Source: Treponema sp.
GTDB taxonomy: Bacteria > Spirochaetota > Spirochaetia > Treponematales > Breznakiellaceae
Length of the DNA: 33,308 bases
Direction of reading: 5' to 3'
NCBI GenBank assembly: GCA_031266075.1
Contig: JAISBS010000028.1
Location: 1 to 33,308 of the forward strand
Both the position numbers and the translations under genes were made by a program. Under the pieces are notes generated by a model that worked only from the letters and a program-made list of their open reading frames with translations, was not told where the DNA came from and made no database searches. This document shows positions 1,204-30,575 of this stretch, piece by piece. Positions within the stretch are counted from its first letter, which is position 1, and the number at the start of each line of letters is the position of its first letter.

Positions 1204-1287
1204 AAAATGAAAGTCTCCGCGGTGAAAAAAAGTACGGAAACCGGCCCCCCCTCTTTGGAGACAAAGGTCCCCACCGGGAGATTTTGG

Positions 1288-1324
1288 GAAGCTCTGGAAA
1301 CCCCGGTTGGGTTTCCAGAGCTTC
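1288..1324. repeat. Perfect 16-bp inverted repeat (CCGGTTGG-type hairpin)
   Basis: The arms 1288-1303 and 1309-1324 pair perfectly around a 5-nt loop CGGTT; the left arm reads GAAGCTCTGGAAACCC. It belongs to the hairpin family seen in most intergenic gaps of this window. No T-run follows on either strand, so terminator activity is not obvious. Confidence 0.85.
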
Positions 1325-1327
1325 CTC

Positions 1328-1383
1328 GAAGAAAATTGCTCATTCCTTATTATATAACGAATTACGCATATACAATTTTCTTC
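1328..1383. repeat. AT-rich segment bounded by 11-bp inverted repeats
   Basis: GAAGAAAATTG at 1328-1338 is the exact reverse complement of CAATTTTCTTC at 1373-1383. The 34 bp between is strikingly AT-rich (TTATTATATAACGAATTA) compared with the surroundings. It sits between two strong hairpins. Its function is unknown; it could be a miniature element remnant or a cruciform-forming spacer. Confidence 0.6.
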
Positions 1384-1395
1384 ATGGGGTACGAA

Positions 1396-1425
1396 AACCT
1401 CTGAAAACTGAAGTTTTCAGAGGTT
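1396..1425 (-). terminator. Probable intrinsic terminator of htrA
   Basis: The arms AACCTCTGAAAACT (1396-1409) and AGTTTTCAGAGGTT (1412-1425) form a near-perfect palindrome 11 bp beyond the htrA stop. Read on the minus strand, the stem runs into TTTTCG, a short U-tract. The core AAAACTGAAGTTTT matches other hairpins of the window's repeat family, so it may double as a repeat element. Confidence 0.65.
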
Positions 1426-1436
1426 CCCTTTTGTGT

Positions 1437-2990: not shown

Positions 2991-3064
2991 TTGAGCTTGT
3001 TCCAAAACCCGGTCTTTCCATTAAATTCAAGGCAACTGTTCCAAAACCAAAGTTTTGGAACACC
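2991..3064 (-). repeat. Composite hairpin element, copy upstream of htrA (second hairpin half lost)
   Basis: On the minus strand this reads TGTTCCAAAAC-TTTG-GTTTTGGAACA (3062-3037), then GTTGCCTTGAATT, then ACCGGGTTTTGGAACAAGCTC. The first hairpin is an 11-bp perfect stem. The linker and the second part match the element at 21433-21552, but the left arm of the second hairpin is missing here. It lies between the map stop and the htrA start, in the same orientation relative to the downstream gene as the nqrM copy. Confidence 0.7.
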
Positions 3065-3134
3065 CTCAATTATAATAAAATTTCCGTTATCAGAGAATAG
3101 TTACAGAGGCTCCCGGAGGCTCCGGCTGAGTTCC

Positions 3135-3163
3135 CTCCGGAAATCCAACCGGGGCTTCCAGAG
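3135..3163. repeat. CCGGTTGG-type hairpin beside the map stop codon
   Basis: The arms CTCCGGAAATCC and GGGGCTTCCAGAG pair imperfectly around AACC; the minus strand shows the CCCCGGTTGG core also seen at 1288-1324. It begins 8 bp beyond the end of map. No U-tract follows, so it is listed as a repeat-family member rather than a terminator. Confidence 0.6.
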
Positions 3164-3170
3164 GTTCCCC

Positions 3171-4003: not shown

Positions 4004-4780
4004 TTACACATTCAGTTTCCGCCGGAGCCGGGTCGCATTGGGCAGGGCGGGATCCCGTTTCAGGGCTTCCCGCATCGCGGCCCCCGCGGCGGCGGTTTCC
4101 CCCGTCTGCAAAAGAACCTCCGACAGGGCGCGCAGCCAGCGGGCCTCGTCACGGGGGGAGAAACCCAGCCCCAAAAGGCTTTCCAGACAGTCCATCCAGG
4201 TTTCGTCATCCACCTGGGCCCGCAGGCGGAGCCGGACCAGTTCCTTGAGGAATATTTCAATATCGTCAATAAAATGCCGAAAATAGGACAGCCGCCGCTC
4301 TTCCCGGACCAGCGTCGTCAAAATCCGGAAGGCTTCAAAATACTGCTCCCGCCTGTCCAGTTCTTCCGCCAGAATATACAGGCAGTCCATCCAGTCTTCC
4401 CGGTCCAGATATTTTTCCATGGGAAAGTGGAGACCCCCGTTTTTCCGCCAGACCTCCAGAGCGGCGTCTTCCTCCAGATGGAGCAGATCGAAAAATACCA
4501 GCTTTGCCTGACTCGCCGGATCATCAGCCTGCCGCTGCAACCAGACCCGGTAATTAAAATCGAGCTTTTTAACAAACCGGGAATAGGCCCGGTCGTATTC
4601 AAACCGGCGGTTCCGGTCGGAAAGCACTTCGTAGGCGCCCAGGAGCTTCCGCATGGCCGTCTCGGCGGCCTTTCCGGCAATGTCCGGGTGGAGCCGTTTC
4701 GCCCGTTTCCGGAACGCCTTTTTTATATCCGTAGACGAAGCATCCTGCTTGACGCCGAGGAGAGAATAATAATTTTCCAT
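4004..4780 (-). CDS. J-domain (DnaJ-like) co-chaperone with helical C-terminal region
   Basis: J-domain proteins stimulate the ATPase of DnaK/Hsp70 and deliver clients to it. Residues 1-65 form a canonical J domain (YYSLLGV at the start, the diagnostic HPD at 31-33, YEVL and FEYDRAY at the end of the domain). There is no Gly/Phe linker, no zinc-finger CxxCxGxG repeats and no CTDI/II, so this is not DnaJ itself. The remaining ~190 residues look alpha-helical with paired leucine/alanine helices (for example EVLLQTGETAAAGAAMREAL near the end), reminiscent of a TPR fold. The 258-aa protein starts at ATG 4780 with GGAGC eight bases upstream, 22 bp after usp. Its place after the ATPase and usp genes suggests co-transcription. 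The specific client is unknown. Confidence 0.85.
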   Translation of the reverse strand: MENYYSLLGVKQDASSTDIKKAFRKRAKRLHPDIAGKAAETAMRKLLGAYEVLSDRNRRFEYDRAYSRFVKKLDFNYRVWLQRQADDPASQAKLVFFDLLHLEEDAALEVWRKNGGLHFPMEKYLDREDWMDCLYILAEELDRREQYFEAFRILTTLVREERRLSYFRHFIDDIEIFLKELVRLRLRAQVDDETWMDCLESLLGLGFSPRDEARWLRALSEVLLQTGETAAAGAAMREALKRDPALPNATRLRRKLNV

Positions 4781-4802: not shown

Positions 4803-5285
4803 CTAGGCCTGTTTGAATATTTGGTCGATTGACGGTTCTTTCACCAGCAGGACGGAACATTTGGCGTTGACCATGATTTCCCGGTGGGCGTGGGAGATAA
4901 TATCCCGGGCGCTCCGGTCTTTTTCCCAGCCCCCCAATACGATAAGATCCGCCTTTTTTTCATCCGCCGCAGCCAGAACCTCCGTATACACCGCCCCTTT
5001 ACGGATTTCCCGCTCTATCTTGACCCCTTTAGTCCGGGCCAGCTCTTCCACAAAGGAAAGATAGCGCCCGCCGTTGGATTCCAGGCTCTTTTCGTATTCC
5101 TGGCTTTCCTCCTGAATAAAAATCTTGCTCAGGGTAAGCTGCCTGATAGTAGCGGTATCCACTACATACAGGGCGGTCAGGCGGCACTTGTTCAGTTTGG
5201 ACATAACGATAGCATATTTTGCCGCCAAAATAGAGGCGTCCGAACCGGTGATAACCGCAATGATGTTGGAGATAAGGGGGTTCAT
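4803..5285 (-). CDS. Universal stress protein (UspA-like) domain protein
   Basis: This cytoplasmic single-domain Usp has 160 residues. The N-terminal strand IIAVITGSDAS, the middle helix with a 50-100 variable region, and the C-terminal ADLIVLGGW and CSVLLVKEP strands give the Rossmann-like Usp pattern. The usual ATP-binding signature G-x2-G-x9-G-S/T is not present; after GGW119-120 the sequence is EKDRSARDII, so it may belong to the non-ATP-binding class. Its ATG overlaps the atpD stop (ATGA), implying translational coupling to the ATPase operon. Such proteins often adjust metabolism under energy or oxygen stress; a role in ATPase control here is only inferred from linkage. Confidence 0.85.
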   Translation of the reverse strand: MNPLISNIIAVITGSDASILAAKYAIVMSKLNKCRLTALYVVDTATIRQLTLSKIFIQEESQEYEKSLESNGGRYLSFVEELARTKGVKIEREIRKGAVYTEVLAAADEKKADLIVLGGWEKDRSARDIISHAHREIMVNAKCSVLLVKEPSIDQIFKQA

Positions 5286-5908
5286 TGTTCCTTTCCGGCC
5301 TTCCTTTTCAATAGTTTTGTGGTGAAGAAAGAATCCCGTTCCCGTTCTTCCAGCGCCGATTCAATATACACCTTTGTTTCCCTGGCGGCGGGGATAATCA
5401 TTTTTTCCAGCGCATTAACCCGGCGTTGGGTCTTCCGCACTTCCCGGGCAAGACGCCAGACAATAGTCCGCACCGCCGCCAGTTCGGTGCATAATTTTAA
5501 CATTTCAAAGAATTCTAGCACGGTTTCATCACATTCGGCAAATGAATTCGCCGGGGAATACTTCAACTCCGCCTCGGGGAGTTTTATCTCCAGTCCCGGC
5601 AGGTTCATTCCCCCCAGAAGCATCCGCTTTTCCCGAAGCTCAAAGTCGTAGCGGATATCCTCCGAAATACGATCCGCCCGCTCCCGTCCGCAGACCACCA
5701 GCATCCGTTTGAGCGCCGGATAGGCGCTGATGATCCGGGCGTCAAGATCCCGCTCCAGAAGCTTCACCTGTTCTACCTTGTTCATAAGGTCCATCACGAG
5801 GATTTCCCGCTTCTGCTCCAGAAGATCGTGGCCTTCTTCGGCGGTGGAGAGCCGGTCCTTGACCGCCCGGAGGTTGCTTTTGGTCGGGGCTATGGATTCC
5901 CTTGCCAT
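5282..5908 (-). CDS. atpD: V/A-type ATPase subunit D (central rotor stalk)
   Basis: Subunit D is the coiled-coil shaft that turns inside the A3B3 head and couples catalysis to ion transport. The 208-aa protein opens with the family signature [13 protein letters not shown] and is almost wholly helical: long N-terminal and C-terminal helices (about 1-65 and 130-205, ending in [10 protein letters not shown]-like heptads) flank a short central region. Its start lies inside the end of atpB (19-bp overlap) with a strong GGAGG five bases upstream of the ATG, and its stop overlaps the usp start by 4 bp. The family fit is unambiguous. Confidence 0.95.
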
Positions 5909-7338
5909 TCATCCTCCTCCGGTTCCGGTTCATTTGAAACTCTGGAGGCCAAAATCGGATCCAGGTATTTTTCAATCTGCTCCTGCTTGACCCGCAGCAA
6001 TTCCTCTTTGGGCAGCTCCGCCAGCGCCTGCCAGCCCAAATCAAGCGTCTGGCCAATGTCCCGGTTTTCCGTCTCTCCCTGGGTCAGGAAAAGGGATTCG
6101 AATTTTTCCTCGAATTTCAGATACCGTTTGTCCCCTTCGGTCAGTTCTTCTTCCCCAATGATAGAGGCCAGGTTCCGCACCTGCCGGACTTTGGAATAGG
6201 CGGCAAAAAGCTGGCTGGACAGATCCTTGTGATCGTCCCGGGTCATGCCCGCGCCGATGCCGTCCTTCATCAGCCGGGAAAGGCTGGAAAGCACCGCCAC
6301 CGGAGGGTAAATTTCCCGCTGGGCCAGTTCCCGGTCCAGAACGATCTGCCCCTCGGTGATATAGCCCGACAAGTCCGGGATGGGATGGCTGATATCGTCG
6401 CTGGGCATGGTGAGGATCGGTATCTGGGTGATAGACCCCGAAGAATCGCGGATCCGTCCCGCCCGCTCGTAGAGGCTCGCCAGATCCGAGTACAGGTAGC
6501 CCGGATAACCCTTGCGGCTGGGCACTTCTTCCCGAATGGAGGAAACTTCCCGGAGAGCTTCGCAGTAGTTGGTCATGTCGGTCATCACGACCAGCACGTG
6601 CATATTTTTTTCGTAGGCCAGATACTCCGCAGCGGTCAGGGCGCAGCGGGGCGCCACCAGCCGTTCAAGGGACGGCGCATCCGCCAGAGACAGGAACACC
6701 ACGACGTTGGCAAGCACCCCGGTCCGCTCAAAATCATCCAGAAAAAACCGGGCCACGTCGTATTTAACCCCCATGGCGCAGAAAATCACCACAAAGGGCT
6801 CAGGCGTCTTCCCCCCGGAACCCAATATGGTCGCCTGCCGGACAATCTGGGCCGCCAGCCGGTTATGGGGCAGCCCGTTCCCGGAAAAGATCGGCAGCTT
6901 CTGGCCCCGGATCAGGGTGTTCATCCCGTCAATAGTGGAGATTCCGGTCTGGATAAAATCCTTGGGGTAAGTCCGGGCGTAGGGGTTGATGGGAAGGCCG
7001 TTTACATCCCGGCAGGCGGAAGAAAAAATCTCCCCATAGCCGTCGATGGGTTTTCCCAGGCCGTTAAAGACCCGGCCCAAAAGCCCCTCCCCTACCCGGA
7101 GTTCCATGGGTTCCTTCAAAAATTCAACCCGGCTGTCGTCGGCGGAAAGCCCCGTATTGTTGCTAAAGAGCTGGACGATAGTCAGGTCTTCGCTTAGGTC
7201 CACCACCCGGCCCATCCGCCGCCCGCCGTCCCGTCCGTAGACCGCCACGGTCTCATTAAAGCCCACATTCCGGCTCCGGGCGGTAACTACCACGGGCCCT
7301 TCGATCCGGGCCAGGCCCCGGTATTCAACTCCCCTCAT
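5890..7338 (-). CDS. atpB: V/A-type ATPase subunit B (non-catalytic head subunit)
   Basis: Three B subunits alternate with three A subunits in the soluble head, contributing one side of each nucleotide site without hydrolysing ATP. The 482-aa protein has the beta-barrel N-terminus ([13 protein letters not shown]), the central RecA-like domain where the P-loop is replaced by [11 protein letters not shown], and the hallmark [16 protein letters not shown]. The last ~35 residues are acidic and extended. Its ATG overlaps the atpA stop (ATGA). Length and motifs are typical; no defect is seen. Confidence 0.97.
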
Positions 7339-9164
7339 AAGCCCCCCAGAGAACGGTAGCTCCGTTCCAGCGAATCCAGTACACCCCGCATCTCCTCGGC
7401 AAAATCATCAAGGCCGGAAAGTTCCTCGTTGGTAACCGAGTATTTGAGCCGGGAAAGCCGGGCCCGGATCGGCAGTTCCTGACCGCCGGATTCGGAGGAA
7501 TCCCCCCCTTTCAGGGAAATGATCTTGGTCAGCGGAGTTCCCTGCCGGACAAGGGCCCTGGATCGTTCATAAAATTCCATAATAAGCTCCAGAAGCCGCA
7601 CCTGTTTGACCGGGGCACAGTACATATCAATTTTGTCAAAGGAGTTTTGCTGCAAAAAACCGTCCTTGATGATCTCCGCCACGATCAGGATAAGCCGCTG
7701 ATCGTCCGGCAGGGCGTCGGGCCCGATAAGGCGGACGATTTCGGAAAGCCGCTGCTCCCGTTTGAGCAGTTCCATGGACTGCCGCCGGATCTGAACCCAC
7801 TGGGGGTTGACCCGTTCCCACCAGGGCTGAACTTCCGCAGCGTATTCGGAATAACTGTCAATCCAGCTAATGGCGGGATAGTGCCGGCCATTGGCCAAAT
7901 CCCGGTCCAGGGCCCAAAAACAGCGGATAAACCGTTTGGTATGCTGGGTAACAGGCTCGGAAAAATCACCCCCCGGCGGGGAAACGGCCCCGATAATCGA
8001 AATCGAGCCCTCTTTGCCGCACAGGGTCTTTACCCTGCCGGCCCGTTCGTAAAATTCCGCCAGCCGGGTGGGAAGGTATGCGGGGAACCCTTCTTCCGCG
8101 GGCATTTCCTCCATCCGGCCCGAAAGTTCCCGCAAAGCCTCGGCCCAGCGGCTGGTGGAGTCCGCCATAATCGCCACATGGAGCCCCATGTCCCGGTAAA
8201 ATTCCGCCAGCGTAACGCCGGTGTAGATCGAAACCTCCCGGGCCGCCACCGGCATATTGGAGGTATTGGCGATCAGCACCGTCCGTTCCATCAGGGAATG
8301 TCCGGTCCGGGGATCGATCAGTTCGGGGAATTCGCTCAAAACCTCGGTCATTTCATTCCCCCGCTCGCCGCAGCCGATGTAGATGATCACATCGGCATCG
8401 CAGAACTTGGCGATGGCGTGCTGGGTCATGGTTTTACCCGTGCCGAAGCCCCCGGGAATGGCGGCGGTTCCGCCCTTGGAAAGAGGGAAGAAAATATCGA
8501 TGACCCGCTGCCCCGTAACCAGCGGCATCTCCGGGGAAAGCCGTTCCGCGTTGGGCCGGGGCACCCGCACGGGCCACCACTGGCCGAAGGGGATGATCCG
8601 CCCGCTCCGGGTTTTTGCCGCGGTTGCTTCCACCGGGTAGTCCCCTTCGGGGGCCAGTTCCGCCAGCGTCTCCCCCTGAAAATCCGGGGGAACCATAATG
8701 GAACAGGTAATGCTGCTGGTTTCCTTTACCGTCCCCAAAACCAGCCCCGGCAGGGCCGCCACCGCTTCCCCGGCGGCAACCCGTTTCGCCACATCCGGGT
8801 CAGGCGAAAAATGCCACTTTTTGGAATAATCCAGCGGTTCCCCCCGGGATCCGGGAGCCATGAACGAACCGCCCGCCTGGTACAGCGGCTTCAGGGGCCG
8901 CTGAATTCCGTCGTAGATGGTTCCCATCAAGCCCGGCCCCAGCAGGGCCGAAAGGGGCCGCCCTGTGGAAGCCGCCGGCGCGCCGATCTGCAGGCCCGTG
9001 GCCTCTTCGTAGACCTGAATAATGGCCTCGTCCCGTTCCAGGCGGACAATTTCCCCGATGATCCGGTTTTCCCCCACTTCCACCACGTCAAAAAGCCCGG
9101 CCCCGCCAAGCCCAGAGGCGTGGATAATCGGGCCCGCTATCCGTTTAACCCTGCCCTCAATCAC
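7335..9164 (-). CDS. atpA: V/A-type ATPase catalytic subunit A
   Basis: Subunit A binds and hydrolyses (or makes) ATP. I choose the GTG at 9164 because AAGGAG lies six bases upstream and the product then begins [16 protein letters not shown], the family's normal N-terminus; an in-frame TTG at 9194 lacks support. From this start the protein is 609 aa. The order is a beta-barrel N-terminus, the bulge domain unique to A/V-type catalytic subunits (about 105-180), the P-loop GGFGTGKT at 238-245, a Walker B-like region [11 protein letters not shown], and a helical C-terminal domain. The start overlaps the atpE stop by 8 bp, and the stop overlaps the atpB start by 4 bp. The assignment is very secure; only the start is a choice. 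Confidence 0.96.
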
Positions 9165-9837
9165 CCTGCGCTCCTTCAGATTTACGTTCCTCAAGGCCTC
9201 CCGGCCCCTTTAAGGCTTCCGGCCCCAGCAGGGCTTCGATCAACTCGGCCCGTTTGTTCAGGAGCAGGGAATCAACCGCCATCTTAATTGAAGCAGTCAG
9301 CCGCACCGCGGGAATGTCCAGCACCAGTTCCGGGTAATCCCCCTGCCGGCCCCCGTTTTCCGGGCCGGAAAGGTTTTCAAAAACCGGAGCGGCGCCGGGC
9401 AGGTTTTTTTTCACCAGCGACCCCGCTTCCTCCTGGCTCAAGCCCGTAAACCCGGCCCGGATCATTTCGGCACCGGCAAATTCCGGACATTCGGCAAGGC
9501 GCCTTTTCAGTTCCCGGTCCAAAAAAACGAGAATTTGCTCCCGTTTTAGGGCCCCGAACCAGTCCACCACCGCGGAAACCAGAAAGCCTTCGACTTTTTC
9601 CGACCAGATCCGCCGCATATCCAGCGGCAGCCGGGCCAGAATTTCGGACGCCGATTCCTGCCGTTTGAGGGAATACCGGCGTTCAAGCTCCGCAAGCGCG
9701 TCGGCGGTCTTTTTTTCCCAGGCCCCGGTATTGGCCTTCACCGCATCGTCGGCGCTTTTGAGAATTTTAAAGGCCTTTCTCCGGGCATCCTCCAGGATTT
9801 CCCGTTCAAGCACTTCAGGTGACTGTAATTCTTCCAT
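9157..9837 (-). CDS. atpE: V/A-type ATPase subunit E (peripheral stalk)
   Basis: Subunit E pairs with the G/H coiled-coil protein to form the peripheral stalk that holds the head still. From the ATG at 9837, which has AGGG upstream, the product is 226 aa; an upstream TTG frame extension to 9864 would overlap atpF and is less likely. The first ~100 residues are a charged helix ([20 protein letters not shown]), followed by a compact C-terminal domain. A Gly/Pro-containing segment around 165-185 ([11 protein letters not shown]) interrupts the C-terminal half. It sits between atpF and atpA, as expected. Sequence conservation of E is low in general, so the call rests on helix pattern, size and gene order. 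Confidence 0.85.
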
Positions 9838-9847
9838 AAGATTGCCC

Positions 9848-10195
9848 TTATACCCGAACCCCAATGGCTTCCCGGATGGAATCCATCAGTGTCTTGCGGC
9901 CAGGCTGCCGCCCCATAGTTCCGGGGATTTCTACAATCAGGGGATAAGAACCGGAAAGCTGCCAGTTCACCACCAGATCGTCCACCCATTCCGCCACTTC
10001 CTGCGTGAGGATCAAAACCCGGCACCGTTCGGCCCGACCCCGGGGCAGCGCCATTCCCGTTGTTTCATCCCAGCCTTCGGTGATCCGCCGAAACTGCACA
10101 CGGGCGCCTTCGGCGTTTACCACCCCCGCGCCCTTTACCCCGACAAAACGGAAGGCCGTAACCAACTCCGGTTCGCCGATAAAGAAAAAATCCAC
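9848..10195 (-). CDS. atpF: V/A-type ATPase subunit F (rotor, DF heterodimer)
   Basis: Subunit F binds subunit D on the central stalk and modulates activity. The 115-aa protein shows the family's start pattern (FFIGEPELVTAFRFVGVKG) and the alternating strand/helix order of the small Rossmann-like F fold; the middle RCRVLILTQEVAEWV and the later YPLIVEIPG strand fit well. The start is a GTG (10195) with only weak SD-like G-runs upstream. It lies 18 bp after atpK and 10 bp before atpE. Gene order and fold agree. Confidence 0.9.
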   Translation of the reverse strand: MDFFFIGEPELVTAFRFVGVKGAGVVNAEGARVQFRRITEGWDETTGMALPRGRAERCRVLILTQEVAEWVDDLVVNWQLSGSYPLIVEIPGTMGRQPGRKTLMDSIREAIGVRV

Positions 10196-10213
10196 CCTGT
10201 TTTTCCCAGCCGC

Positions 10214-10537
<324 letters not shown>

Positions 10538-10581
10538 TTATTGCAACAATATACATTTTATCATAATCAGCTACGATTATG

Positions 10582-12675
10582 TTAGTAACTACCCGCTTCT
10601 TTTCTAAACCGGAAGGGGGAAAACTTCACCCCCGTTTCGACAAAAAACTTGCTGAAAAATTCATAATACTGGAGCCGCACCACCTGAATGGCCACGATCA
10701 GTCCCTCAAGAACGATGATGATCCCGTTGCCAATGAGCATAATCAAGAGCGCCCCCAGACTGCCCAGGGGGAAACCCAGGGCCGCAACCTTGTCGGTAAA
10801 CAAAAACACAATGTAGGAAAGCACCAGGTGGGAAAGGGTAAAGGCCCCCACCCGGAGAAAGCTGACCGTATTGGAAAAATAGGTGGAAACAGTTTCCAGA
10901 ACACCCACAAAACACTCGATGAAAAAAGCTGCCAGACCGTGTTCCAGCACCGGGCGCTCCCCGGAGGCCAGCCGCCAGATCGCCGGGCTAAAAATGATGC
11001 AGAGGACCGGCAGGGCAAGGCCGATCAGGTCAAACCACATAAAGCGGCCCCCCAGCACGATACGCAGGGCCATAAAAATGGCGTACCAGAAAAAAAGGAG
11101 CCCCGCGAGGCCGGTCCGGGAAAAAAAGGCTTCCTCGTACTTCCGCCGCATCGAATAGTTGATGATATTGATCACCAGCCCGATGGAAATGAGGAGTATC
11201 CCGATGACAACCGTAAACCCGAAATAAAACAGCAGTTTCATCATGCTCCCGCCATGGCTCGCCATGGGCAGGAGGGTAAGGATATGATTCACCGGATGGC
11301 CGGTCAGCAGCCCGGTCAGCGCCCGGGTGGGCCCCGTCAGCAGTTCTTCATTGGTAAAGACCGACCCGACCAAAAAGCCCATCACCATGGAACTGAGCCC
11401 CACGGAAATGAGGGGGGTTGAATACTTCCCGAATTTCCGCATCTTCCTGAGTCCCCGCGGCCCGGTCAGGAGTCCCAGCAGAAACAGGACAAAGCCCTGC
11501 CCCACATCCCCAAACATAAGGCCGAACATCAGGGTAAAGAAAAAGGCCACCAGCGGACTTGGGTCGATGGTTCCGTAGGGAGGCGCGCCATAGGACATGA
11601 CCACCCCTTCAAAGCCCCGGACAAAGGCCCCATGTTTCAGGGAAACCGGAACCTTTTCCCGGCCTTCCTGCACACGGGGGATCTCGTCGGGGTTAAAGGC
11701 GCGAATCGCGATCCGGCCATCGGTCAAATCCGAAAGCTCCTTCGCCAGTTTCGCCACTCGGTCCTGGGGAACCCAGCCGGAAAGAAGGTACGAACTGCTG
11801 GTGGCAACGAGCCGCCCCTTGATCTCTTCAACCGTGGCGGCCATAAGCCAGGAGGCGGCAAGTTCCCGGATTTTCCGGCCAAATTTACGGCTCAATGCAT
11901 CTTTTTGCCCCGCGGCCTTTTCAAGCTCCCCGTCGATGCTTTCCAGCCGGGATTCAAGGCCCGAAAGCATCTCTTCCGGCACCCCCTGAAACCCTTCGGG
12001 GATCGTTATGGGAACAAAGGAATGTTTTTTCAGCTCCGAATCCAGCGCGAACCGGCCCTTTCTGCTGGCCGCCGCCAAAATCCGGTCCCCCTGTTCGCCC
12101 GTTTTCCCGATTCCCAGCGGGATAATCACGGCCCGGCTACCCAGCGATTCCCGCAGGCCCGCCTGTCCTCTGGCGTCCAGCCGCCCGATTCTGAGGGTCA
12201 GGTAGGAAAGCCGGTCCAGTTCGGCAAAGGGGGCATGAAGGCCGGAAAAAGCCTGCGCCTCGTTAAGGGCCGCCTCGACCTTTGTTTTTTCTTCCTTCAA
12301 TTCCTGTTCCCGGCTGATAAGGCCCGCAGCGGCGGCGTTTATCTCCGCCGCCATATCGGCCTCCGCCGGGCCGGGAAGCCGGGTGGACTCATCAGGCTCG
12401 CCGGGAAACTCGATGCCGAGCCAGTCCGCAACGGCCCGGATCTGTTCCAGGTTTTTCTCCACCGGGAGCCGGCCCGCGCCGGGCGCCGCCGAAGGCTCCT
12501 CCCCGGCTTCCGCGGCGGAGGCCGCTTCGGCAAAGGCGGCCTTCAGATCCGCGGCGGCTTCTTCGTTCTCGGAAAAATGTATCAGCGCCCGGCGGCCCAG
12601 ATGTTCGATTACCGCATCCGCGTCCCGGTTTAAAACGGAAATATCAATATGCTGCATCTTCCGGGGCATGATCAT
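10582..12675 (-). CDS. atpI: V/A-type ATPase subunit I (membrane stator, a-subunit homologue)
   Basis: Subunit I joins the peripheral stalk to the membrane ring and provides the ion half-channels. The 697-aa protein has a large cytosolic N-terminal half (about 1-345; RKMQHIDISVLNRDADAVI, then long coiled-coil helices) and a membrane half with about seven to eight hydrophobic segments. The two conserved arginines of the ion path are visible, at about Arg608 (VSFLRVGAFTLSH) and Arg667 (IQVVRLQYYEFFSKFF). The C-terminus ends with the typical GVKFSPFRF. The start overlaps the atpC stop by 4 bp. An Ala/Gly/Pro-rich insert at about 55-70 (EEPSAAPGAGRLP) is a mild oddity. Confidence 0.95.
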   Translation of the reverse strand: MIMPRKMQHIDISVLNRDADAVIEHLGRRALIHFSENEEAAADLKAAFAEAASAAEAGEEPSAAPGAGRLPVEKNLEQIRAVADWLGIEFPGEPDESTRLPGPAEADMAAEINAAAAGLISREQELKEEKTKVEAALNEAQAFSGLHAPFAELDRLSYLTLRIGRLDARGQAGLRESLGSRAVIIPLGIGKTGEQGDRILAAASRKGRFALDSELKKHSFVPITIPEGFQGVPEEMLSGLESRLESIDGELEKAAGQKDALSRKFGRKIRELAASWLMAATVEEIKGRLVATSSSYLLSGWVPQDRVAKLAKELSDLTDGRIAIRAFNPDEIPRVQEGREKVPVSLKHGAFVRGFEGVVMSYGAPPYGTIDPSPLVAFFFTLMFGLMFGDVGQGFVLFLLGLLTGPRGLRKMRKFGKYSTPLISVGLSSMVMGFLVGSVFTNEELLTGPTRALTGLLTGHPVNHILTLLPMASHGGSMMKLLFYFGFTVVIGILLISIGLVINIINYSMRRKYEEAFFSRTGLAGLLFFWYAIFMALRIVLGGRFMWFDLIGLALPVLCIIFSPAIWRLASGERPVLEHGLAAFFIECFVGVLETVSTYFSNTVSFLRVGAFTLSHLVLSYIVFLFTDKVAALGFPLGSLGALLIMLIGNGIIIVLEGLIVAIQVVRLQYYEFFSKFFVETGVKFSPFRFRKEAGSY

Positions 12676-13691
12676 TTTTCAACCCCCAGCAGATTCAAAA
12701 TATCCCCGCCGGACATTCCCAGCCCCAGCCCTTCGGCGGCGCTGGTAAGAATATCCTCCTCAAACTGCTTCAGCTTGATAAAGCACATGACGGCGTCCAG
12801 CGAAAAGGGATCGCTGCGGAAGTAACGGCGGGCCAGCCGGTACAAATACCGGGAAACCGCGTTCTGGAAAAACCGGGGGTCAGGCTTCCATTCCTCGCCG
12901 GGTTTTTCCGGGTTCAGGAAGGCGTGCCGCCGCCAGCTTTTCCAGACCGCCGGGTTGTCCAGCGGCAATTTCAGGGCCGCCTCCGCGTCTGCCGCCGCGG
13001 AGCGGCCAGGGCCCAGGGGAATCTTCAAAAGATAATGCTGCCCCTGCGGCGATCCCACGCCGTAATAGCTCCGCAGGCGCAGGGCCCACATACAGTTCCG
13101 CAGGGATATTTCTTCCCTCAGGATCAAATCCCCCGCCCGCCGGTCTTTCGGGGCCAAACGGCGGAGGCTTTCCCACAACATCTGGTAATACTGGCGGTCG
13201 AGCCGGGCCTGGAGGAGCATATTTTCCTCCGCGGTCATGGCGCCAAAGTCTTCACCGGCAAGCCACTGGAATTCGGACTGCCGAAACATGGCCCCCAGAT
13301 CGGGCCAGGCCGCCCAGCGCACTGTGTCGAAGGGTTTGAGGCTGGTAAAAACCGGAGCTTCCGTCTCCCCGGCGGTCAAATGGTTCAGGAGGGACTTTAC
13401 GTCGGCATATTCATAAACCCGCAACTGCCGGATCAAAAATTCCGGCGGAGGGGAACAGGACGACACAATCGTCAGAATTTGCTGCACCGCCCGCCCGGTG
13501 ATGCGTTTTTCCAGATCCCGCAAAAGCTCGCCGCCGGGGAGTTCCCGGCTTTCCCCGGGAAAAATCAGCCGGTCCAGGTCCGCCAGCCGGGTAAGGCTCC
13601 GGAGCCGGGAAACCCGGCTGCCAATACAGGACTTGCCGGCAATTCCGCAGGCTTTGGCATATACGTATGCCCGTCTCCCCGGTTCCGCCAT
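12672..13691 (-). CDS. atpC: V/A-type ATPase subunit C (AC39/V0-d family)
   Basis: Subunit C is the funnel-shaped socket linking the central DF shaft to the K ring. The 339-aa length fits the AC39 family. The sequence is helix-rich with the family's characteristic aromatic/arginine helices (YQMLWESLRRL; LRNCMWALRLRSYYG) and an N-terminal YVYAKACGIAGKS. The ATG overlaps the preceding stop by one base (TAATG) and the stop overlaps atpI by 4 bp, so synthesis is tightly coupled. Identity is supported by both motifs and gene order. Confidence 0.9.
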   Translation of the reverse strand: MAEPGRRAYVYAKACGIAGKSCIGSRVSRLRSLTRLADLDRLIFPGESRELPGGELLRDLEKRITGRAVQQILTIVSSCSPPPEFLIRQLRVYEYADVKSLLNHLTAGETEAPVFTSLKPFDTVRWAAWPDLGAMFRQSEFQWLAGEDFGAMTAEENMLLQARLDRQYYQMLWESLRRLAPKDRRAGDLILREEISLRNCMWALRLRSYYGVGSPQGQHYLLKIPLGPGRSAAADAEAALKLPLDNPAVWKSWRRHAFLNPEKPGEEWKPDPRFFQNAVSRYLYRLARRYFRSDPFSLDAVMCFIKLKQFEEDILTSAAEGLGLGMSGGDILNLLGVEK

Positions 13692-14044
13692 TATGTTTCC
13701 CCTGTCAGGAGTGCGGTCATCAACGCTGAAAAACGGCTTTTATCCATGGTGATCCGGCTCAAACTCTCCCGGTAGGCTTCAATTTCTTCTCTATAAGAGG
13801 CTTTTACCCCTGTTATTTCTTTTTGATACGACGCTTCATGGGCTGTGGCTTCCCGGTTGTACTGTTCCTCGTAACGGGCGCGGTTCTGCCGCTCCGCCTC
13901 GTCAATACGGCGGCTCACTTCGACCTGCGCTTCATCCGCCAGGGCGGCGGCCTCGGCCTCGACTTTCAGCAGATTTTCCAGCAGCGCCTGTCTGTGCGCA
14001 TCCTGATCAAGCTGGCCCGCTCCGGGCTGTACGCTTTTCGCCAT
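13691..14044 (-). CDS. V/A-type ATPase G/H-like peripheral-stalk coiled-coil subunit
   Basis: The 117-residue protein is almost entirely a charged helix (ALADEAQVEVSRRIDEAERQ) with heptad-like spacing, as in the small stalk partner of subunit E. It is the first ATPase gene of the run, in the place where Thermus-type operons carry subunit G. Sequence in this family is barely conserved, so the call depends on composition, length and a one-base overlap with atpC. It starts at ATG 14044, 14 bp after the EIIA gene. Confidence 0.75.
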   Translation of the reverse strand: MAKSVQPGAGQLDQDAHRQALLENLLKVEAEAAALADEAQVEVSRRIDEAERQNRARYEEQYNREATAHEASYQKEITGVKASYREEIEAYRESLSRITMDKSRFSALMTALLTGET

Positions 14045-14058
14045 AGTTGCCGCTCCCC

Positions 14059-14556
14059 CTATTCCGGCCTTCCCGAAGGCCGTTGATCCATTGTAACAAA
14101 TATATCTTCGTATTTTTTAATCACGTTATACGCGCTCTGGGGATCCCGCTGGCTCACCAGGTCAATATAAAACTGGGGGTTTTCCAGCAGTTCCGCCATC
14201 CGTTTGAGGATCCGAAGGTGTTTTTCCGTATCCATTTCGGGGATAAGCAGCATAAAGATCAGATACACCGGCTCTCCGTCCAGCGCGTCATAATCAATTC
14301 CCCGCCGGGAAATGCCCAAAACGCCGTGAATCTGCTCCACCGCGGCGGTCTTGCCGTGGGGGATGCCGATCCCCTTGTGGATTCCGGTGGACATTTTCGC
14401 TTCCCGCTCCCGCAGGGCCTCCAGCATTTCTTCACGGCCATCGGACTTGCCGGTCTGGCAAAAATGATCCACCAGTTCCTCGAAGGCTTCGTCCTTGTCT
14501 TCCGCCTCCATATCCACCTTAATCAAATCGGGCCGAAATATATCGTACAGAAACAT
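14059..14556 (-). CDS. PTS EIIA type-2 domain protein (PtsN / fructose-mannitol EIIA family)
   Basis: EIIA domains of this fold accept phosphate from HPr on a histidine, either to pass it to a sugar transporter or, in the PtsN class, to regulate other proteins. I use ATG 14556 (165 aa), which has a G-run GAGTGGGGGGG upstream; a GTG four codons earlier is too close to the upstream SD-like sequence. The active-site histidine is His67 in GIGIPHGK, preceded by STGIHKGIG; the PVYLIFMLLIPE and HLRILKRMAELL segments are the usual conserved ones. There are no EIIB/EIIC genes nearby, which favours a regulatory PtsN-like role. It lies between secG and the ATPase genes in the same transcription unit. 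Confidence 0.88.
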   Translation of the reverse strand: MFLYDIFRPDLIKVDMEAEDKDEAFEELVDHFCQTGKSDGREEMLEALREREAKMSTGIHKGIGIPHGKTAAVEQIHGVLGISRRGIDYDALDGEPVYLIFMLLIPEMDTEKHLRILKRMAELLENPQFYIDLVSQRDPQSAYNVIKKYEDIFVTMDQRPSGRPE

Positions 14557-14571
14557 AAACCCCCCCACTCC

Positions 14572-14961
14572 CTATTCGGTTACGGTATTTTCTTCGACCG
14601 CTGAACCTTCCGGCCCTTCAGTCCCCGGGGTTCCGACGCCCTGGCGATTCAGTTCATCTTCCAGCCAGTCCCCGGTTCCGGCCTCGACGGAAAGTTCCCG
14701 TCCCGCGGCTTCCACCCCCATGTCGCCGGGAGTCCGGTTCAGCAGGGCCAGGCCCAGGCTGATAATCAGAAACAGGGCTCCCAGCACCGTGGTGGCCCTG
14801 GTCAGCACATTCCCGGACCGGGAACCAAAGGCCGAGGCGCTGCCCCCGGCGAAAATGCCCCCCAGACTGTTCCCTTCCTCATTTTGCACCAGCACCAGCA
14901 GCACCAGCAGCACCGCGATGATCACAAAAAATACCAACAGTACGATACTGAGTATATTCAT
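14572..14961 (-). CDS. secG: Preprotein translocase subunit SecG
   Basis: SecG is the small membrane partner of SecYE that assists protein export. The ATG at 14961 has GGAG eight bases upstream and gives 129 aa; an in-frame TTG two codons earlier is less likely. Two membrane helices are clear (about 3-25 and 57-77), joined by the conserved VLVQNEEGNSLGGIFAGG loop and SRSGNVLTRAT. After the second helix comes an acidic, Gly/Thr/Glu-rich tail of ~50 residues, longer than in E. coli SecG and probably unstructured. It is the first gene of the minus-strand operon and would be made directly from the promoter at 15058-15086. Confidence 0.93.
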   Translation of the reverse strand: MNILSIVLLVFFVIIAVLLVLLVLVQNEEGNSLGGIFAGGSASAFGSRSGNVLTRATTVLGALFLIISLGLALLNRTPGDMGVEAAGRELSVEAGTGDWLEDELNRQGVGTPGTEGPEGSAVEENTVTE

Positions 14962-15000
14962 CTCCAAAACTCCATTTAGAATCAGCAGCCTTCCACGAAT

Positions 15001-15036
15001 AAAAAAACCTTCTGAAAACCGAAGCTTTCAAAGGTT
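15001..15036 (-). terminator. Leader terminator-like hairpin with UUCG tetraloop upstream of secG
   Basis: In minus-strand RNA the order is AACCUU-UGAAAGC, the loop UUCG, then GUUUUCA-G-AAGGUU, i.e. 13 pairs (one G.U) with one bulged G, followed by U5 (U7 counting the last stem bases). It lies after the promoter at 15058-15086 and about 40 nt before the secG ATG. No minus-strand gene lies immediately upstream that it could terminate, so it may be an attenuator. It also resembles the hairpin repeat family. Confidence 0.65.
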
Positions 15037-15057
15037 CCTTTTTCGTAAGTATCATGT

Positions 15058-15086
15058 ATTCTAGACGAATTGTGGTATTTATGCAA
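15058..15086 (-). promoter_or_regulatory. Sigma70-type promoter for secG-ATPase operon
   Basis: On the minus strand TTGCAT (15086-15081) is followed after exactly 17 bp by TAGAAT (15063-15058). This gives a start near 15050 and a leader of about 90 nt. Both hexamers are close to consensus and no competing candidate is visible before secG. Confidence 0.7.
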
Positions 15087-15252
15087 GGTTTGGTTTGGTT
15101 TTTGGAAAATTTCCCCTTCCGGGCAGGCGGCGGCTCGTTTTTTCTATTTTTTCACCAAAGCATATTATTCCGCAATAAATACGGTGAATACTTGTTTTGA
15201 ACCGGGCGCCGCCTTTCAAACATAAAAAAAGGCAAAAAATCTTAAAAAAAAC

Positions 15253-15280
15253 TTGACAATTTTAATTAAGATGATAACCT
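15253..15280 (+). promoter_or_regulatory. Sigma70-type promoter for the nqr operon
   Basis: A perfect TTGACA (15253-15258) is followed after 16 bp by TAACCT (15275-15280). An A-rich tract lies immediately upstream (15220-15250) and could act as an UP element. The predicted start near 15287 leaves a leader of ~147 nt before nqrA. Confidence 0.6.
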
Positions 15281-15316
15281 ATGAACAAAGAGAGGAAATA
15301 ATTGAACAGACTCCAT

Positions 15317-16777
<1,461 letters not shown>

Positions 16778-16779
16778 TC

Positions 16780-17979
16780 ATGGGTTTACGTCGATTTCTC
16801 GACCGCCTGGAGCCCCATTTTAAAAAGGGCGGGAAGTTTGAACGGCTCTATCCCCTGTTTGAGGCGGGGGACACGTTCTTTTACCGTCCCGCCTATATAA
16901 CCCGGACCACCGCTCATGTACGGGACGCGATGGATTTAAAGCGGATCATGATCATCGTGGTCTTCGCCGCCATTCCGGCCATGCTTGCGGGTATGTGGAA
17001 TGTGGGTTTTCAGGCCAATAGTGCTTATCAGGCCAACCGCGAACTGCTTTTCAAATTTCTGGAGGGCTGGCGGGGGGCCTTCCTTCAAAGTACCGTAGGT
17101 TTTGATCCGGCCAGCATCTGGGCCAACCTGGTGCATGGCGCGGTCTATTTCCTGCCCATTTTGCTGACCTCGGTGATAGTGGGGATCTTCTGGGAAGTGT
17201 TCTTTGCCTGCGTGCGGAAACATGACATCAGCGAAGGCATTTTTGTTACCATGGTGCTGTTCCCCCTGATTCTGCCCCCCAACATTCCCCTGTGGCAGGT
17301 GGCGCTGGGGATCAGTTTTGGCGTCGTTCTGGGGAAGGAAGTGTTCGGCGGCACGGGCTTTAACTTTCTCAACCCGGCCCTTACCGGGCGGGCCTTCCTG
17401 TTCTTCGCCTACCCGAGCCGCATTTCCGGCGACGCCGTATGGACCGCCGTGGACGGGGTGAGCGGCGCTACTCCGCTGGCCCTGGCCCAGGAAGGGACCG
17501 AATTCGGCATGAGCTGGATGCAGGCGTTCCTCGGCGTCATGCCCGGTTCCACGGGCGAAACATCCACGGTGGCGGTTCTGCTCGGCGGCGCGCTGATGAT
17601 CCTTACCGGGGTTGTTTCTCTCCGGATCATTGTGGGTATTCTGCTCGGGGCGGCGGCGACCAGCCTGCTGTTCAACTTTATCGGCCCCGCCGGCAATGTT
17701 CTCTTCGCCATGCCGTGGTACTGGCACTTTGTGCTGGGCGGCTTTGCCTTCGGAACCATATTTATGGCCACCGATCCGGTGTCCGCCGCCATGACGAACC
17801 GGGGCAAATGGATATACGGGGCGCTGATCGGCGTCATGGTCATACTAATCCGGGTAGTCAATCCGGCCTTTCCGGAAGGCATGATGCTGGCGATCCTCTT
17901 TGGCAACCTCTGCGCCCCCCTGATCGACCATTTTGTCGTTTCAGCAAATATCAAACGAAGGATGGCGCGCCATGTCTGA
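16780..17979 (+). CDS. nqrB: Na+-translocating NADH:quinone oxidoreductase subunit B
   Basis: NqrB is a main membrane subunit and carries a covalently bound FMN and riboflavin in the Na+-pumping path. The 399-aa protein has an N-terminal cytoplasmic region (about 1-52) and roughly ten hydrophobic segments. The flavinylation motif is DGVSGATPL, with Thr231 the expected FMN attachment residue. The signature NFLNPALTGRAFLFFAYP is intact. GGAGGG lies six bases before the ATG; the end overlaps nqrC by 8 bp. FMN transfer needs an ApbE enzyme, which is not encoded in this window. Confidence 0.96.
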   Translation: MGLRRFLDRLEPHFKKGGKFERLYPLFEAGDTFFYRPAYITRTTAHVRDAMDLKRIMIIVVFAAIPAMLAGMWNVGFQANSAYQANRELLFKFLEGWRGAFLQSTVGFDPASIWANLVHGAVYFLPILLTSVIVGIFWEVFFACVRKHDISEGIFVTMVLFPLILPPNIPLWQVALGISFGVVLGKEVFGGTGFNFLNPALTGRAFLFFAYPSRISGDAVWTAVDGVSGATPLALAQEGTEFGMSWMQAFLGVMPGSTGETSTVAVLLGGALMILTGVVSLRIIVGILLGAAATSLLFNFIGPAGNVLFAMPWYWHFVLGGFAFGTIFMATDPVSAAMTNRGKWIYGALIGVMVILIRVVNPAFPEGMMLAILFGNLCAPLIDHFVVSANIKRRMARHV

Positions 17980-18766
17980 CAAGAAAAAAGAATCCATCCT
18001 GCGCACCCTGCTGGTCGCGCTGGTGGTAAGCCTTGTGGCTTCGGTTTTCGTAGCGGGTTCCGCGATTTACCTGAAACCCACCCAGCAGGCGAACAGCCTC
18101 CTTGACAAACAGCGGAGCATCCTGTCAATCGCGGGAATTGGGAATCCTGAACTTTCTTCCCGTGAGGTGCAGGAACTTTTTGCCAGCCGCATCAAGGCCC
18201 GGGTAATCGACCTGACTACGGGTGAAGAAAAAACGGACCTGGATCCGGCGGTCTTTGACCCGTTAAAGGCGGCACGGGATCCCAAAACCTCTATTGCCCT
18301 GTCCGGCGAAGAGGATATTGCCAAGGTCATACGCCGCGAACAGTTCACGACAATCTATCTGCTGGAGACCGACGGCCTTATCGAGGCCCTGATTCTCCCG
18401 GTTCGAGGCTACGGCCTCTGGTCCACCCTCTACGGCTTTCTGGCCCTTAAAACCGGCGACCTGAACACCGTGGTGGGCTTCGGATTCTACCAGCACGGGG
18501 AAACGCCGGGCATGGGCGGCGAAGTGGACAACCCCCGGTGGAAGGCCCTCTGGCCCGGCAAAACCGTGTTTGACGAAGCAGGCAAGCCGGTGATCCAGAT
18601 CATCAAGGGCGGCGTGAACCCGGCCAATCCGGCAGTGGGGCATCAGGTTGACGCGCTGTCGGGCGCCACGCTGACCAGCAGGGGCGTGGAACGCCTGCTG
18701 TTATTCTGGCTGGGGGACAAGGGTTTCGGGCCCTATCTCGCCAAACTGCGTCAACAAGGAGTCTAG
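17972..18766 (+). CDS. nqrC: Na+-translocating NADH:quinone oxidoreductase subunit C
   Basis: NqrC has a single membrane anchor and a periplasmic domain with covalent FMN. I use ATG 17972 (264 aa, [10 protein letters not shown]), 8 bp inside the end of nqrB; the longer frame from 17933 merely reads through nqrB. The anchor is about residues 11-33. The flavin motif [10 protein letters not shown] places the FMN on Thr233. [13 protein letters not shown] and [11 protein letters not shown] are also characteristic. The nqrD start follows after 2 bp. All key residues are present. Confidence 0.95.
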
Positions 18767-18768
18767 CC

Positions 18769-19437
18769 ATGGAAAAAAAAGAAACTATCAAGGACGTGCT
18801 GTTCGATCCGGTTTTTAACAACAACCCCATCGCCCAGCAAATTCTCGGCGTATGTTCGGCGCTGGCGGTTACCTCGGGCCTGAAAACGGCGCTGGTCATG
18901 GCAATCTGCCTGACCCTGGTTACCGCTTTTTCCAGCTTTTTCATTTCCCTGATCCGCAACCAGATTCCCAGCTCCATCCGCATGATCGTGCAAATGGTCA
19001 TCATTGCGTCGCTGGTCATTCTGGTTGATCAGGTGCTTAAAGCCTTTGTCTTTTCGCTGTCCAAGCAACTTTCCGTTTACGTGGGACTGATCATCACCAA
19101 CTGTATCGTTATGGGCCGGGCGGAAGCCTATGCCATGCAGAACCCACCCATCCGCTCCTTCCTGGACGGCATCGGTAACGGGCTTGGCTATTCCCTCATA
19201 CTGATTACGCTGGGCGCATTCCGGGAACTGCTTGGCGCGGGGAAACTGCTGGGCATTACGATTCTGCCGCCCGTCAACGAAGGCGGCTGGTATCTGCCCA
19301 ACAGCCTGCTCCTGATGCCGCCGTCGGCCTTTTTCCTCATCGGCCTTCTTATCTGGGCCCTGCGCAGCTGGAAAAAAGATCAGCGGGAAGAAGCGCCGTT
19401 TGAACTGGCGCCGCAATTTTCGGAACAGGATAATTAG
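18769..19437 (+). CDS. nqrD: Na+-translocating NADH:quinone oxidoreductase subunit D
   Basis: NqrD and NqrE are paired inverted-topology membrane subunits that hold an iron centre between them. The 222-aa protein has about six hydrophobic segments. The two iron-ligating cysteines fall at Cys29 ([10 protein letters not shown]) and Cys112 ([12 protein letters not shown]), the same numbers I recall for Vibrio NqrD. AGGAG precedes the ATG. The hydrophilic C-terminal ~25 residues are charged. Its neighbours and length are typical of an nqr operon. Confidence 0.96.
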
Positions 19438-19449
19438 GGGGAAACAGAC

Positions 19450-20058
19450 ATGGAACATTTATTGAGCCTTTTCGTACGCGCCCTCTTTATCGAAAACATG
19501 GCCCTGGCCTTCTTTTTGGGTATGTGTTCTTTCATCATGATATCCAAAAAGGTGGATACGGCCATCAGTCTGGGGATTGCGATTATTTTGGTTCAGGTCA
19601 TTACCGTCCCGGTGAACAATCTGGTGTATAACTACCTGCTCCGTGACGGGGCGCTGGCCTGGGCGGGACTGCCGGATCTGGATTTATCGTATCTGGGCTT
19701 CCTCACCTATATCGGCGTTATCGCCGCCATTGTGCAGATTCTGGAAATGACAATGGACAAATATATGCCCAAACTGTATAACACGCTGGGTATCTTTTTG
19801 CCGCTGATTACCGTGAACTGTATCATCATGGCCGGATCGCTCTTTATGGTGGAACGGGACTACACATTTTCCGAAAGTGTGGTCTACGGCTTCGGTTCCG
19901 GCGCTTCCTGGGCACTGGCGATTGCGCTCTTGGCCGGGATACGGGAAAAACTAAAATACAGCCATGTGCCTGCGGGACTCCAGGGAAAGGGGATCACCTT
20001 TATCACCATCGGTTTGATGGCCCTGGGTTTCATGTGCTTTTCCGGCATACAGCTTTAA
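19450..20058 (+). CDS. nqrE: Na+-translocating NADH:quinone oxidoreductase subunit E
   Basis: This is the partner of NqrD in the membrane core. It has 202 aa, about six hydrophobic segments, and the cysteines Cys26 (FFLGMCSFI) and Cys124 (TVNCIIMAG) that complete the D/E iron site. The N-terminal [19 protein letters not shown] and the [16 protein letters not shown] segments are family signatures. The loop at 62-80 is short and acidic. A GGGGA SD is nine bases before the ATG. It is followed after 9 bp by nqrF. Confidence 0.96.
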
Positions 20059-21300: not shown

Positions 21301-21318
21301 TAACCGGTTGTGTTCAGG

Positions 21319-21359
21319 GCGCCTTCAAAACCCCGGCGGGGTTTTGAAGGCGCTTTTTT
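21319..21359 (+). terminator. Intrinsic terminator after nqrF
   Basis: A perfect 16-bp stem (21319-21334 with 21338-21353; left arm GCGCCTTCAAAACCCC) encloses the loop GGC and is followed by six T residues. It is the clearest terminator in the window and separates nqrF from nqrM. Confidence 0.92.
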
Positions 21360-21432
21360 CGTACCGGGGGTGTAATACCCGGGAACCCGCCCGCGGCGAA
21401 CCGAAGATTCGGGGCCCCGAGGATTTTCAGAT

Positions 21433-21552
21433 GGGACTGTTCCAAAACTTCAGTTTTTGGAACAGTTGCCTTGAATTGAGGGGGAAAACCGGTCAAGACC
21501 CGGTTTTTCCGGGAGCTTGTTCCGAAACCGGCCAGGTTTTGGAACAAGCTCA
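21433..21552 (+). repeat. Composite two-hairpin element upstream of nqrM
   Basis: Hairpin 1 is ACTGTTCCAAAA (21436-21447) paired with TTTTGGAACAGT (21455-21466). The linker GTTGCCTTGAATT and a CCGGTC..GACCCGG stretch follow. Hairpin 2 pairs GAGCTTGTTCCGAAACC (21513-21529) with GGTTTTGGAACAAGCTC (21535-21551), with one G.T pair, and runs into ATTTTTT just before the nqrM SD. The unit is shared with 2991-3064 and 30137-30220. The final hairpin plus T-run could also terminate or attenuate transcription ahead of nqrM. Confidence 0.75.
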
Positions 21553-30105: not shown

Positions 30106-30136
30106 GGCCCATGCCATGGCCCGGATAAAACACAAT

Positions 30137-30220
30137 GGACTTGTTCAATAACCCGGTTGGTTTCGGAACAAGCTCGAAATTCCAAGGTAGCTGTTCCAAA
30201 AACTGAAGTTTTGGAACAGC
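30137..30220 (-). repeat. Composite two-hairpin element downstream of cydC
   Basis: Read on the minus strand: GCTGTTCCAAAA paired with TTTTGGAACAGC (stem 30190-30201/30209-30220), the linker CTACCTTGGAATT, then GAGCTTGTTCCGAAACC, CCGGGTT and GAACAAGTCC. The last part pairs CTTGTTC (30140-30146) with GAACAAG (30166-30172) on the plus strand. The order, linker and arms match 21433-21552. No T-run follows on the plus strand, so it is not a typical terminator for cydC. Confidence 0.7.
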
Positions 30221-30262
30221 CCCAGCTCATAACGACGAAAAAACTTTTTTATGGAGAGAAAT

Positions 30263-30550: not shown

Positions 30551-30575
30551 GAGACCGCTCATCGCAAGCGGTCTC
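30551..30575 (+). terminator. Possible terminator of the DUF4491 gene
   Basis: A perfect 9-bp stem (GAGACCGCT with AGCGGTCTC, loop CATCGCA) begins 10 bp after the stop. Only two T residues follow, so intrinsic termination would be weak. Confidence 0.45.

Follow-up and report, generated by a model that had tools for sequence, protein, structure and literature searches.

A terminator-like hairpin in the secG leader of a Treponema species is very likely the decayed relic of a MITE

The leader of the secG operon raises the question of why a hairpin with the look of an intrinsic terminator stands between a promoter and the first start codon of the operon. A preliminary description had taken this layout to mean that transcription of secG and of the EIIA, V-type ATPase, usp and dnaJ-like genes behind it may be attenuated. 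Our analysis of the window, which is the whole stretch of 33,308 nucleotides of Treponema sp. DNA, and of related genomes leads us to another reading. The hairpin belongs to a dispersed family of palindromes and corresponds to one end of a non-coding element of three hairpins, copies of which carry 4-bp target duplications; the whole element is present in the same leader of a sister species. We therefore consider it very likely that the secG-leader hairpin is a decayed MITE relic, inserted into the leader and possibly dampening transcription by constitutive partial termination.

We first set out the functional parts of the leader and operon (Table 1), the Pfam check covering the operon genes on either side of 5282-9837. 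The anatomy is as had been described: TTGCAT and TAGAAT stand 17 nt apart on the minus strand as the claimed promoter, and the claimed 13-pair stem, cUUCGg tetraloop and U-run are present, with one bulged G (15012) in addition. The secG ATG (14961) lies downstream, and no minus-strand neighbor needs the terminator, as the upstream rnfC-like gene diverges. In the hairpin, AACCUUUGAAAGC (15036-15024) pairs with GUUUUCAGAAGGUU (15019-15006) around the tetraloop at 15023-15020, and the 8 nt directly 3' of the stem read UUUUUAUU, with U at seven of the eight positions. Transcription of secG would be expected to start near 15051. The A-tract 5' of the stem pairs with the U-tract, so that the optimum fold of the leader has a longer stem; this fold reaches -28.6 kcal/mol (z -3.6), none of 200 dinucleotide shuffles was equally stable, and the closing-pair probability of the hairpin is 0.998. 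The 31-nt stem alone (-11.8 kcal/mol), with the U-run directly 3' of it, has the sequence of an intrinsic terminator.

Table 1. Positions of the secG leader, its operon and the repeat copies in the window
Feature	Position	Strand	Basis or remark
Full-length 143-bp element (P2, middle and P1 hairpins)	1286..1428	+	R2; TTTT on both sides
DnaJ-domain gene	4004-4780	-	Pfam family match
Universal stress protein gene	4803-5285	-	Pfam family match
V-type ATPase subunit genes (C/AC39, I, c ring, F recognized)	9848..13691	-	Pfam
Small gene	13691-14044		No Pfam family matched
PTS EIIA type-2 gene	14059..14568	-	PF00359
secG, first operon gene	14572..14961	-	PF03840
Relic copy of palindrome P1 (3' end of three-hairpin element)	15000..15039	+	R1 covariance model, alignment A1
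U-tract after hairpin	15001..15007	-	First two U inside stem
13-pair hairpin, one bulged G, cUUCGg loop	15006..15036	-	In secG transcripts
secG promoter	15058..15086	-	-35 TTGCAT 15086-15081, 17-nt spacer, -10 TAGAAT 15063-15058
Divergent upstream neighbor		+	rnfC-like, judged by eye

Simple promoter and terminator scans omit both signals, the promoter because its -35 TTGCAT is identical to the consensus at just 3 of 6 positions and the hairpin because of the bulge in its stem. Support for the promoter comes from the relatives, where the TTG...-17-TA...T layout recurs 5' of secG. The top promoter-like site in a scan of 7000-20000 lies upstream of the hairpin on the minus strand (15440-15413, 10/12, 16-nt spacer), so a longer minus-strand transcript may read into the secG hairpin; the scan found 8 such sites against 5.3 expected, which is not clearly beyond chance.

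The palindrome, P1, is a dispersed repeat. Eight palindrome copies, none of them from secG, served to build a covariance model, R1, which matched the secG copy with 35.7 bits (window E 2.2e-8; genome-wide E 1.3e-6) on the plus strand versus 21.3 bits (E 4.1e-4) on the minus strand, which places P1 in the orientation opposite to secG. The aligned P1 copies, with which the secG sequence can be aligned, have ACGAAAACCTCTGAAAACtgaaGTTTTCAGAGGTTCCC in common. In the same genome, the exact pattern AACCTYTGAAA...TTYARAGGTT gave 14 matches, 7 per strand, at 8 places, and the reversed-pattern control gave 0. R1 found at least 90 matches (E <=0.01, both strands) at 55 or more distinct places in this 1.97-Mb, 70%-complete genome, a lower bound because 150 of 753 first-look candidates were scored. 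The genomic setting of 27 of these copies, taken from a home-made gene caller, was intergenic in 24 (11 tandem, 7 convergent, and 6 divergent), within a gene in 1, and at contig edges in 2. Sites between divergent genes would not be expected of gene-end terminators, though these are bare counts without a background rate.

In the genomes searched, the family is patchy within the order of the window and sparse beyond it. R1 matched 17 of 39 genomes (own included) at E 0.001. In a draw of 149 genomes from the phylum, searched with stricter filters and 44 candidates scored per genome, 13 matched at 1e-4. The window's order accounts for 6 of these (of 15 drawn, own included), and the other 7 are among 134 genomes from outside it. 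Six of the 7 belong to one genus (f17 g50) and match weakly, at E 7.6e-6 or worse and in part as tandem arrays; the seventh (f44) has 10 R1 matches. In one genome per species from 84,980 species, an exact 26-base pattern occurred in at least 115 stretches, and among the 115 matches listed, all titles were those of spirochetes, including T. vincentii, T. porcinum, and T. parvum. The viral contigs of IMG/VR gave 0 palindrome matches. In the distant spirochete G131 (contig C2, 3250078-3250505), four R1 matches lie exactly 130 nt apart, perhaps as a tandem array, and in G165 (contig C4) three matches are 141 nt apart.

P1 forms the 3' end of a larger element, which in full consists of a 5' hairpin (P2), a middle hairpin, and P1, with GGG...CCC ends. 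The 21 element candidates measure 107-144 bp and are non-coding, and their termini are inverted repeats of the GGGNACCTCTRAAAAC ... GTTTTYAGAGGTTCCC type (alignment A3). Exact 4-bp duplications flank 13 of the 21, compared with a mean of 1.18 and a maximum of 6 in 2000 shuffles; flank identity at lengths 2, 3, 5, and 6 showed no comparable excess in the same candidates. An excess of 4-bp duplications is the signature of a transposable element. The test drew on 22 listed candidates, of which 21 had long enough flanks; an empty artefact row (L142) was scored as a non-match, and L194, omitted for its short flank, has 4-bp flanks that agree. A 13-sequence alignment of the own-genome subfamily predicts 54 pairs, 8 of them changed on both sides, and other subfamilies keep the same three-hairpin plan with different stems.

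The copy at 1286 in the window is among the 13 sequences of model R2, which matches it with 164.6 bits (E 6e-42). Weaker R2 matches occur at 3032-3169, 21316-21552, 30136-30222, 30551-30668, and 30861-30968. With GTTCC/CTTGTTC as arms and unchanged loops (CTGAAG and CCCGGTTGG), these are probably members of a second element family, and the 33-kb window may thus hold several three-hairpin elements. P1 palindromes also occur alone, at L219 225-260 and elsewhere; their termini are GGG...CCC, and in some of them the 4-bp flanks agree. Such flank matches were found for 5 of 16 solo palindromes (shuffle mean 0.94, maximum 5), which is no more than suggestive that the 36-bp palindrome could move alone. 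Near the 1286 element, the window also has a 63-bp direct repeat, 95% identical, at 1021-1083 and 1144-1206; its start, AAAGTAAACGCACCC, also follows the solo palindrome in L060.

PMC10969869 describes bacterial MITEs as gene-free elements shorter than 500 bp, with inverted ends, stable stem-loops, and intergenic sites, the younger copies also showing target duplications. The Treponema element agrees in its size, inverted ends, duplications, lack of a gene, stem-loops, and dispersed, mostly intergenic copies, and so, judged from its sequence, fits the structural criteria set out there. It differs in having a middle hairpin and ends that are both palindromes, each with a conserved loop of its own. 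The same source calls MITEs conceivable as mRNA terminators and cites SPRITE as a terminator-like example. Compared by description alone, the Treponema repeat resembles known dispersed elements that carry a terminator-like hairpin, in contrast to which most Treponema copies, even on the U-richer side, have only 3-4 U among the 8 nt that follow the stem, single copies such as the one at secG being terminator-like. REP/RAYT and IS200/IS605 palindromes are likewise dispersed, extragenic, and often paired, but no palindrome-flanked Y1 transposase was found for the Treponema repeat in the genomes searched. The REP/RAYT and IS200/IS605 class is not known to produce 4-bp duplications. The main text of PMC10969869 has no mention of Treponema, spirochaet-, spirochet-, or Borrelia, nor has PMC2267715, on stem-loop families, of Treponema, spirochaet-, Borrelia, or denticola; by title and abstract, we found no description of the palindrome or element in the open-licence PMC literature. 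Rfam gave 0 RNA hits at the gathering threshold over the window and 4 sub-threshold hits over 3 loci.

We searched near the copies for a gene that could mobilize the element. Among 60 listed ORFs of 943, no recurring transposase-like ORF was seen by eye; these 60 comprised translations of the repeat itself and members of other gene families, ABC proteins among them. When 218 loci were searched for long-range pairing, four pairs spanned more than 200 bp: 316 bp (L119, flanked on each side by TATT), 400 bp (L176, flanked on each side by TTAA and containing N), 810 bp, and 4036 bp. In four further stretches, inspected for a gene between element ends, the ORFs were, by eye, not transposases. No autonomous copy or associated transposase was found among ORFs near copies, in the pairing search, in these further stretches, or in the PF01609 and PF01797 searches. 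An IS4/IS5-type transposase (DDE_Tnp_1, PF01609) was rejected as the driver: it matched 3 of 7 genomes, with none in G016, G022, G025, and G030, and its 5 loci lack P1. The Y1 transposase (PF01797) had no match in G001, G025, and G030, all rich in copies. The single Y1 gene of the window's own genome lies in locus L096, which lacks a P1 match at E up to 0.1 and has a 12.9-bit P2-like remnant (E 0.31) about 400 bp from the gene. A RAYT/IS200 driver was likewise rejected, Y1 being absent from these three copy-rich genomes and the Y1 gene not being flanked by the palindrome. Mobilization of MITEs in trans is a property of a parent element, which may be absent from the same genome. The window itself contains an ORF at 28-756 (plus strand), about 530 bp from the 1286 element, that resembles the integrase core (PF00665) only weakly, at E 3e-4, and falls short of the Pfam cut-off.

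The sister species shows the element whole in the leader. Model R2 matches the same-genus locus L003 end to end at 1330-1472 (89.9 bits, E 3.4e-22), inside the secG leader, between the promoter and the ribosome-binding site, with flanks GTAT and TTAT. The distance from -10 to ATG there is 178 nt, or 143 + 4 + 31, and 31 nt is a length seen in short leaders of the relatives. In the window, R2 matches the secG relic with 15.7 bits (E 0.016) at model positions 105-140; the copy is decayed, the P1 end alone is left, and it has no target duplication of its own flanking it. In L003 the U-run of P1 lies on the antisense strand of secG, with CCCTTATTTT as the sense tail, so the sense-strand terminator of the window is not common to both species. 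The opposite orientation of the two copies also means that shared ancestry of the insertions is not demonstrated; they may descend from a single insertion that was later rearranged or from two separate events. A shared A-run and AGCTTT were rejected as proof of a single insertion, as the A-run also occurs in L230 and in L036/L055 and AGCTTT can arise by reading strand.

We compared secG leaders across relatives by automatic promoter picks, which were wrong or doubtful in some cases (e.g., L006, L010, L019, L027, and L029), and L009 was omitted. The SecG protein is present in 35 of 39 genomes (own included), and 30 loci were returned, five of the 35 giving none. At E <=0.1, R1 matched 2 of the 30 secG loci from the window's order, the window (L001) and the same-genus relative (L003); P1 was absent at E up to 0.1 from the other 28. 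The distance from -10 to ATG is 30-36 nt in six short-leader relatives (L002, L007, L012, L013, L014, and L018), 96 nt in the window, and 21 to 178 nt in the leaders outside those six. Six of 29 leaders have a fold z of -2 or lower (L021, L003, L001, L008, L006, and L010), which indicates that other leaders can contain hairpins of unrelated sequence. Two of the six, L001 and L003, carry the repeat; for L006 and L010, the promoter assignment is uncertain.

With this evidence, the part of the preliminary description that concerned attenuation can be divided: partial termination is possible, and an evolved, regulated attenuation is unsupported, the hairpin being a dispersed repeat found at 2 of 30 loci. 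A regulated attenuator would be an evolved terminator, its formation controlled by an antiterminator, protein, or ligand, that tunes secG and the ATPase operon. The secG leader resembles terminator/antiterminator attenuators in having a hairpin and U-run between promoter and start codon, and its strong fold and its tail, the most U-rich among 28 copies, also speak for such a device; it differs from them in that neither an antiterminator nor conservation was found, and this is why regulation is unsupported. The fold prediction for a competing antiterminator, suggested in the preliminary description, found none: the RNA ahead of the stem is only about 15 nt long, and the best stem-free fold, at -18.1 versus -28.6 kcal/mol, is less stable by 10.5 kcal/mol and draws on sequence 3' of the U-tract. 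As P1 is missing from 28 of 30 loci, the two copies have U-runs on opposite strands, and two of the six stable leaders are the element itself, we rejected a conserved secG attenuator and hold a regulated one to be highly improbable. It is quite improbable that the stem instead shields the operon mRNA at its 5' end without terminating transcription. The stem begins about 15 nt from the expected start, and known 5' stabilizer stems begin similarly near the transcript start, but a stabilizer has no need of a U-run directly 3' of the stem, and the hairpin is not conserved among secG loci. The chance that the hairpin arose at random in an A+T-rich leader is negligible; terminator-like motifs hardly exceed chance in the region (24 found by the simple scan versus 19.7 expected, sd 4.4), but no shuffle folded equally well and the match to the repeat family has E 2.2e-8.

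The closest competitor to a plain relic is a MITE end that was captured and refined, by its UUCG loop and longer U-run, into a constitutive partial terminator setting the operon level. Among 28 copies compared, the one at secG looks most like a terminator: U occupies 7 of the 8 positions behind its stem, read on the secG strand. On the same reading the next copies have 6 and 5, and the rest 4 or fewer (range 1-6). Its loop is cUUCGg, where most copies have cUUCAg in the secG-strand reading. Both departures from the family consensus improve the terminator on the secG strand; a U-rich tail and UUCG loop are what selection for termination would produce, and they count against a plain relic. MITE-borne mRNA terminators are also called conceivable (PMC10969869). 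We nonetheless judge this refinement unlikely: the finding was chosen for its terminator-like look, so that these departures are not independent evidence, the refined form is known from one genome only, and similar A-runs occur in other copies (L055 and L230). A broader version is distinctly unlikely, namely a new three-hairpin mobile family, patchy in the Treponema order, with fixed loops (CTGAAG at one end and, in the own-genome subfamily, CCCGGTTGGG at the other) and compensating stems, one end of which has become, in the secG leader, a functional terminator controlling how strongly the secretion/V-ATPase operon is expressed.

As a decayed MITE relic, the hairpin would have come about in a few steps. 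A transposase acting in trans would have moved the element into the secG leader, and the copy would then have been truncated and decayed in this genome. The relic RNA can act as a terminator because its stem happens to precede a U-run; it is predicted to be a weak, unregulated intrinsic terminator, and such partial termination would lower, and not switch, secG-EIIA-V-ATPase-usp-dnaJ transcription. A textbook-looking attenuator can thus be a transposable-element relic, and repeat status is worth checking before a riboregulator is proposed. The element, with its structured ends and precise 4-bp duplications in many Treponema-type genomes, is a concrete target for finding the mobilizer and may account for many odd intergenic hairpins in such genomes.

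A second strong hairpin, at 15317-15362 on the plus strand, belongs to the leader of the rnfC-like operon, which diverges from secG. Its stem pattern is absent from the 38 other genomes searched and occurs once in the window's own genome. The fold of this leader (15282-15440) has a z of -2.43, with 2 of 200 shuffles equally stable.
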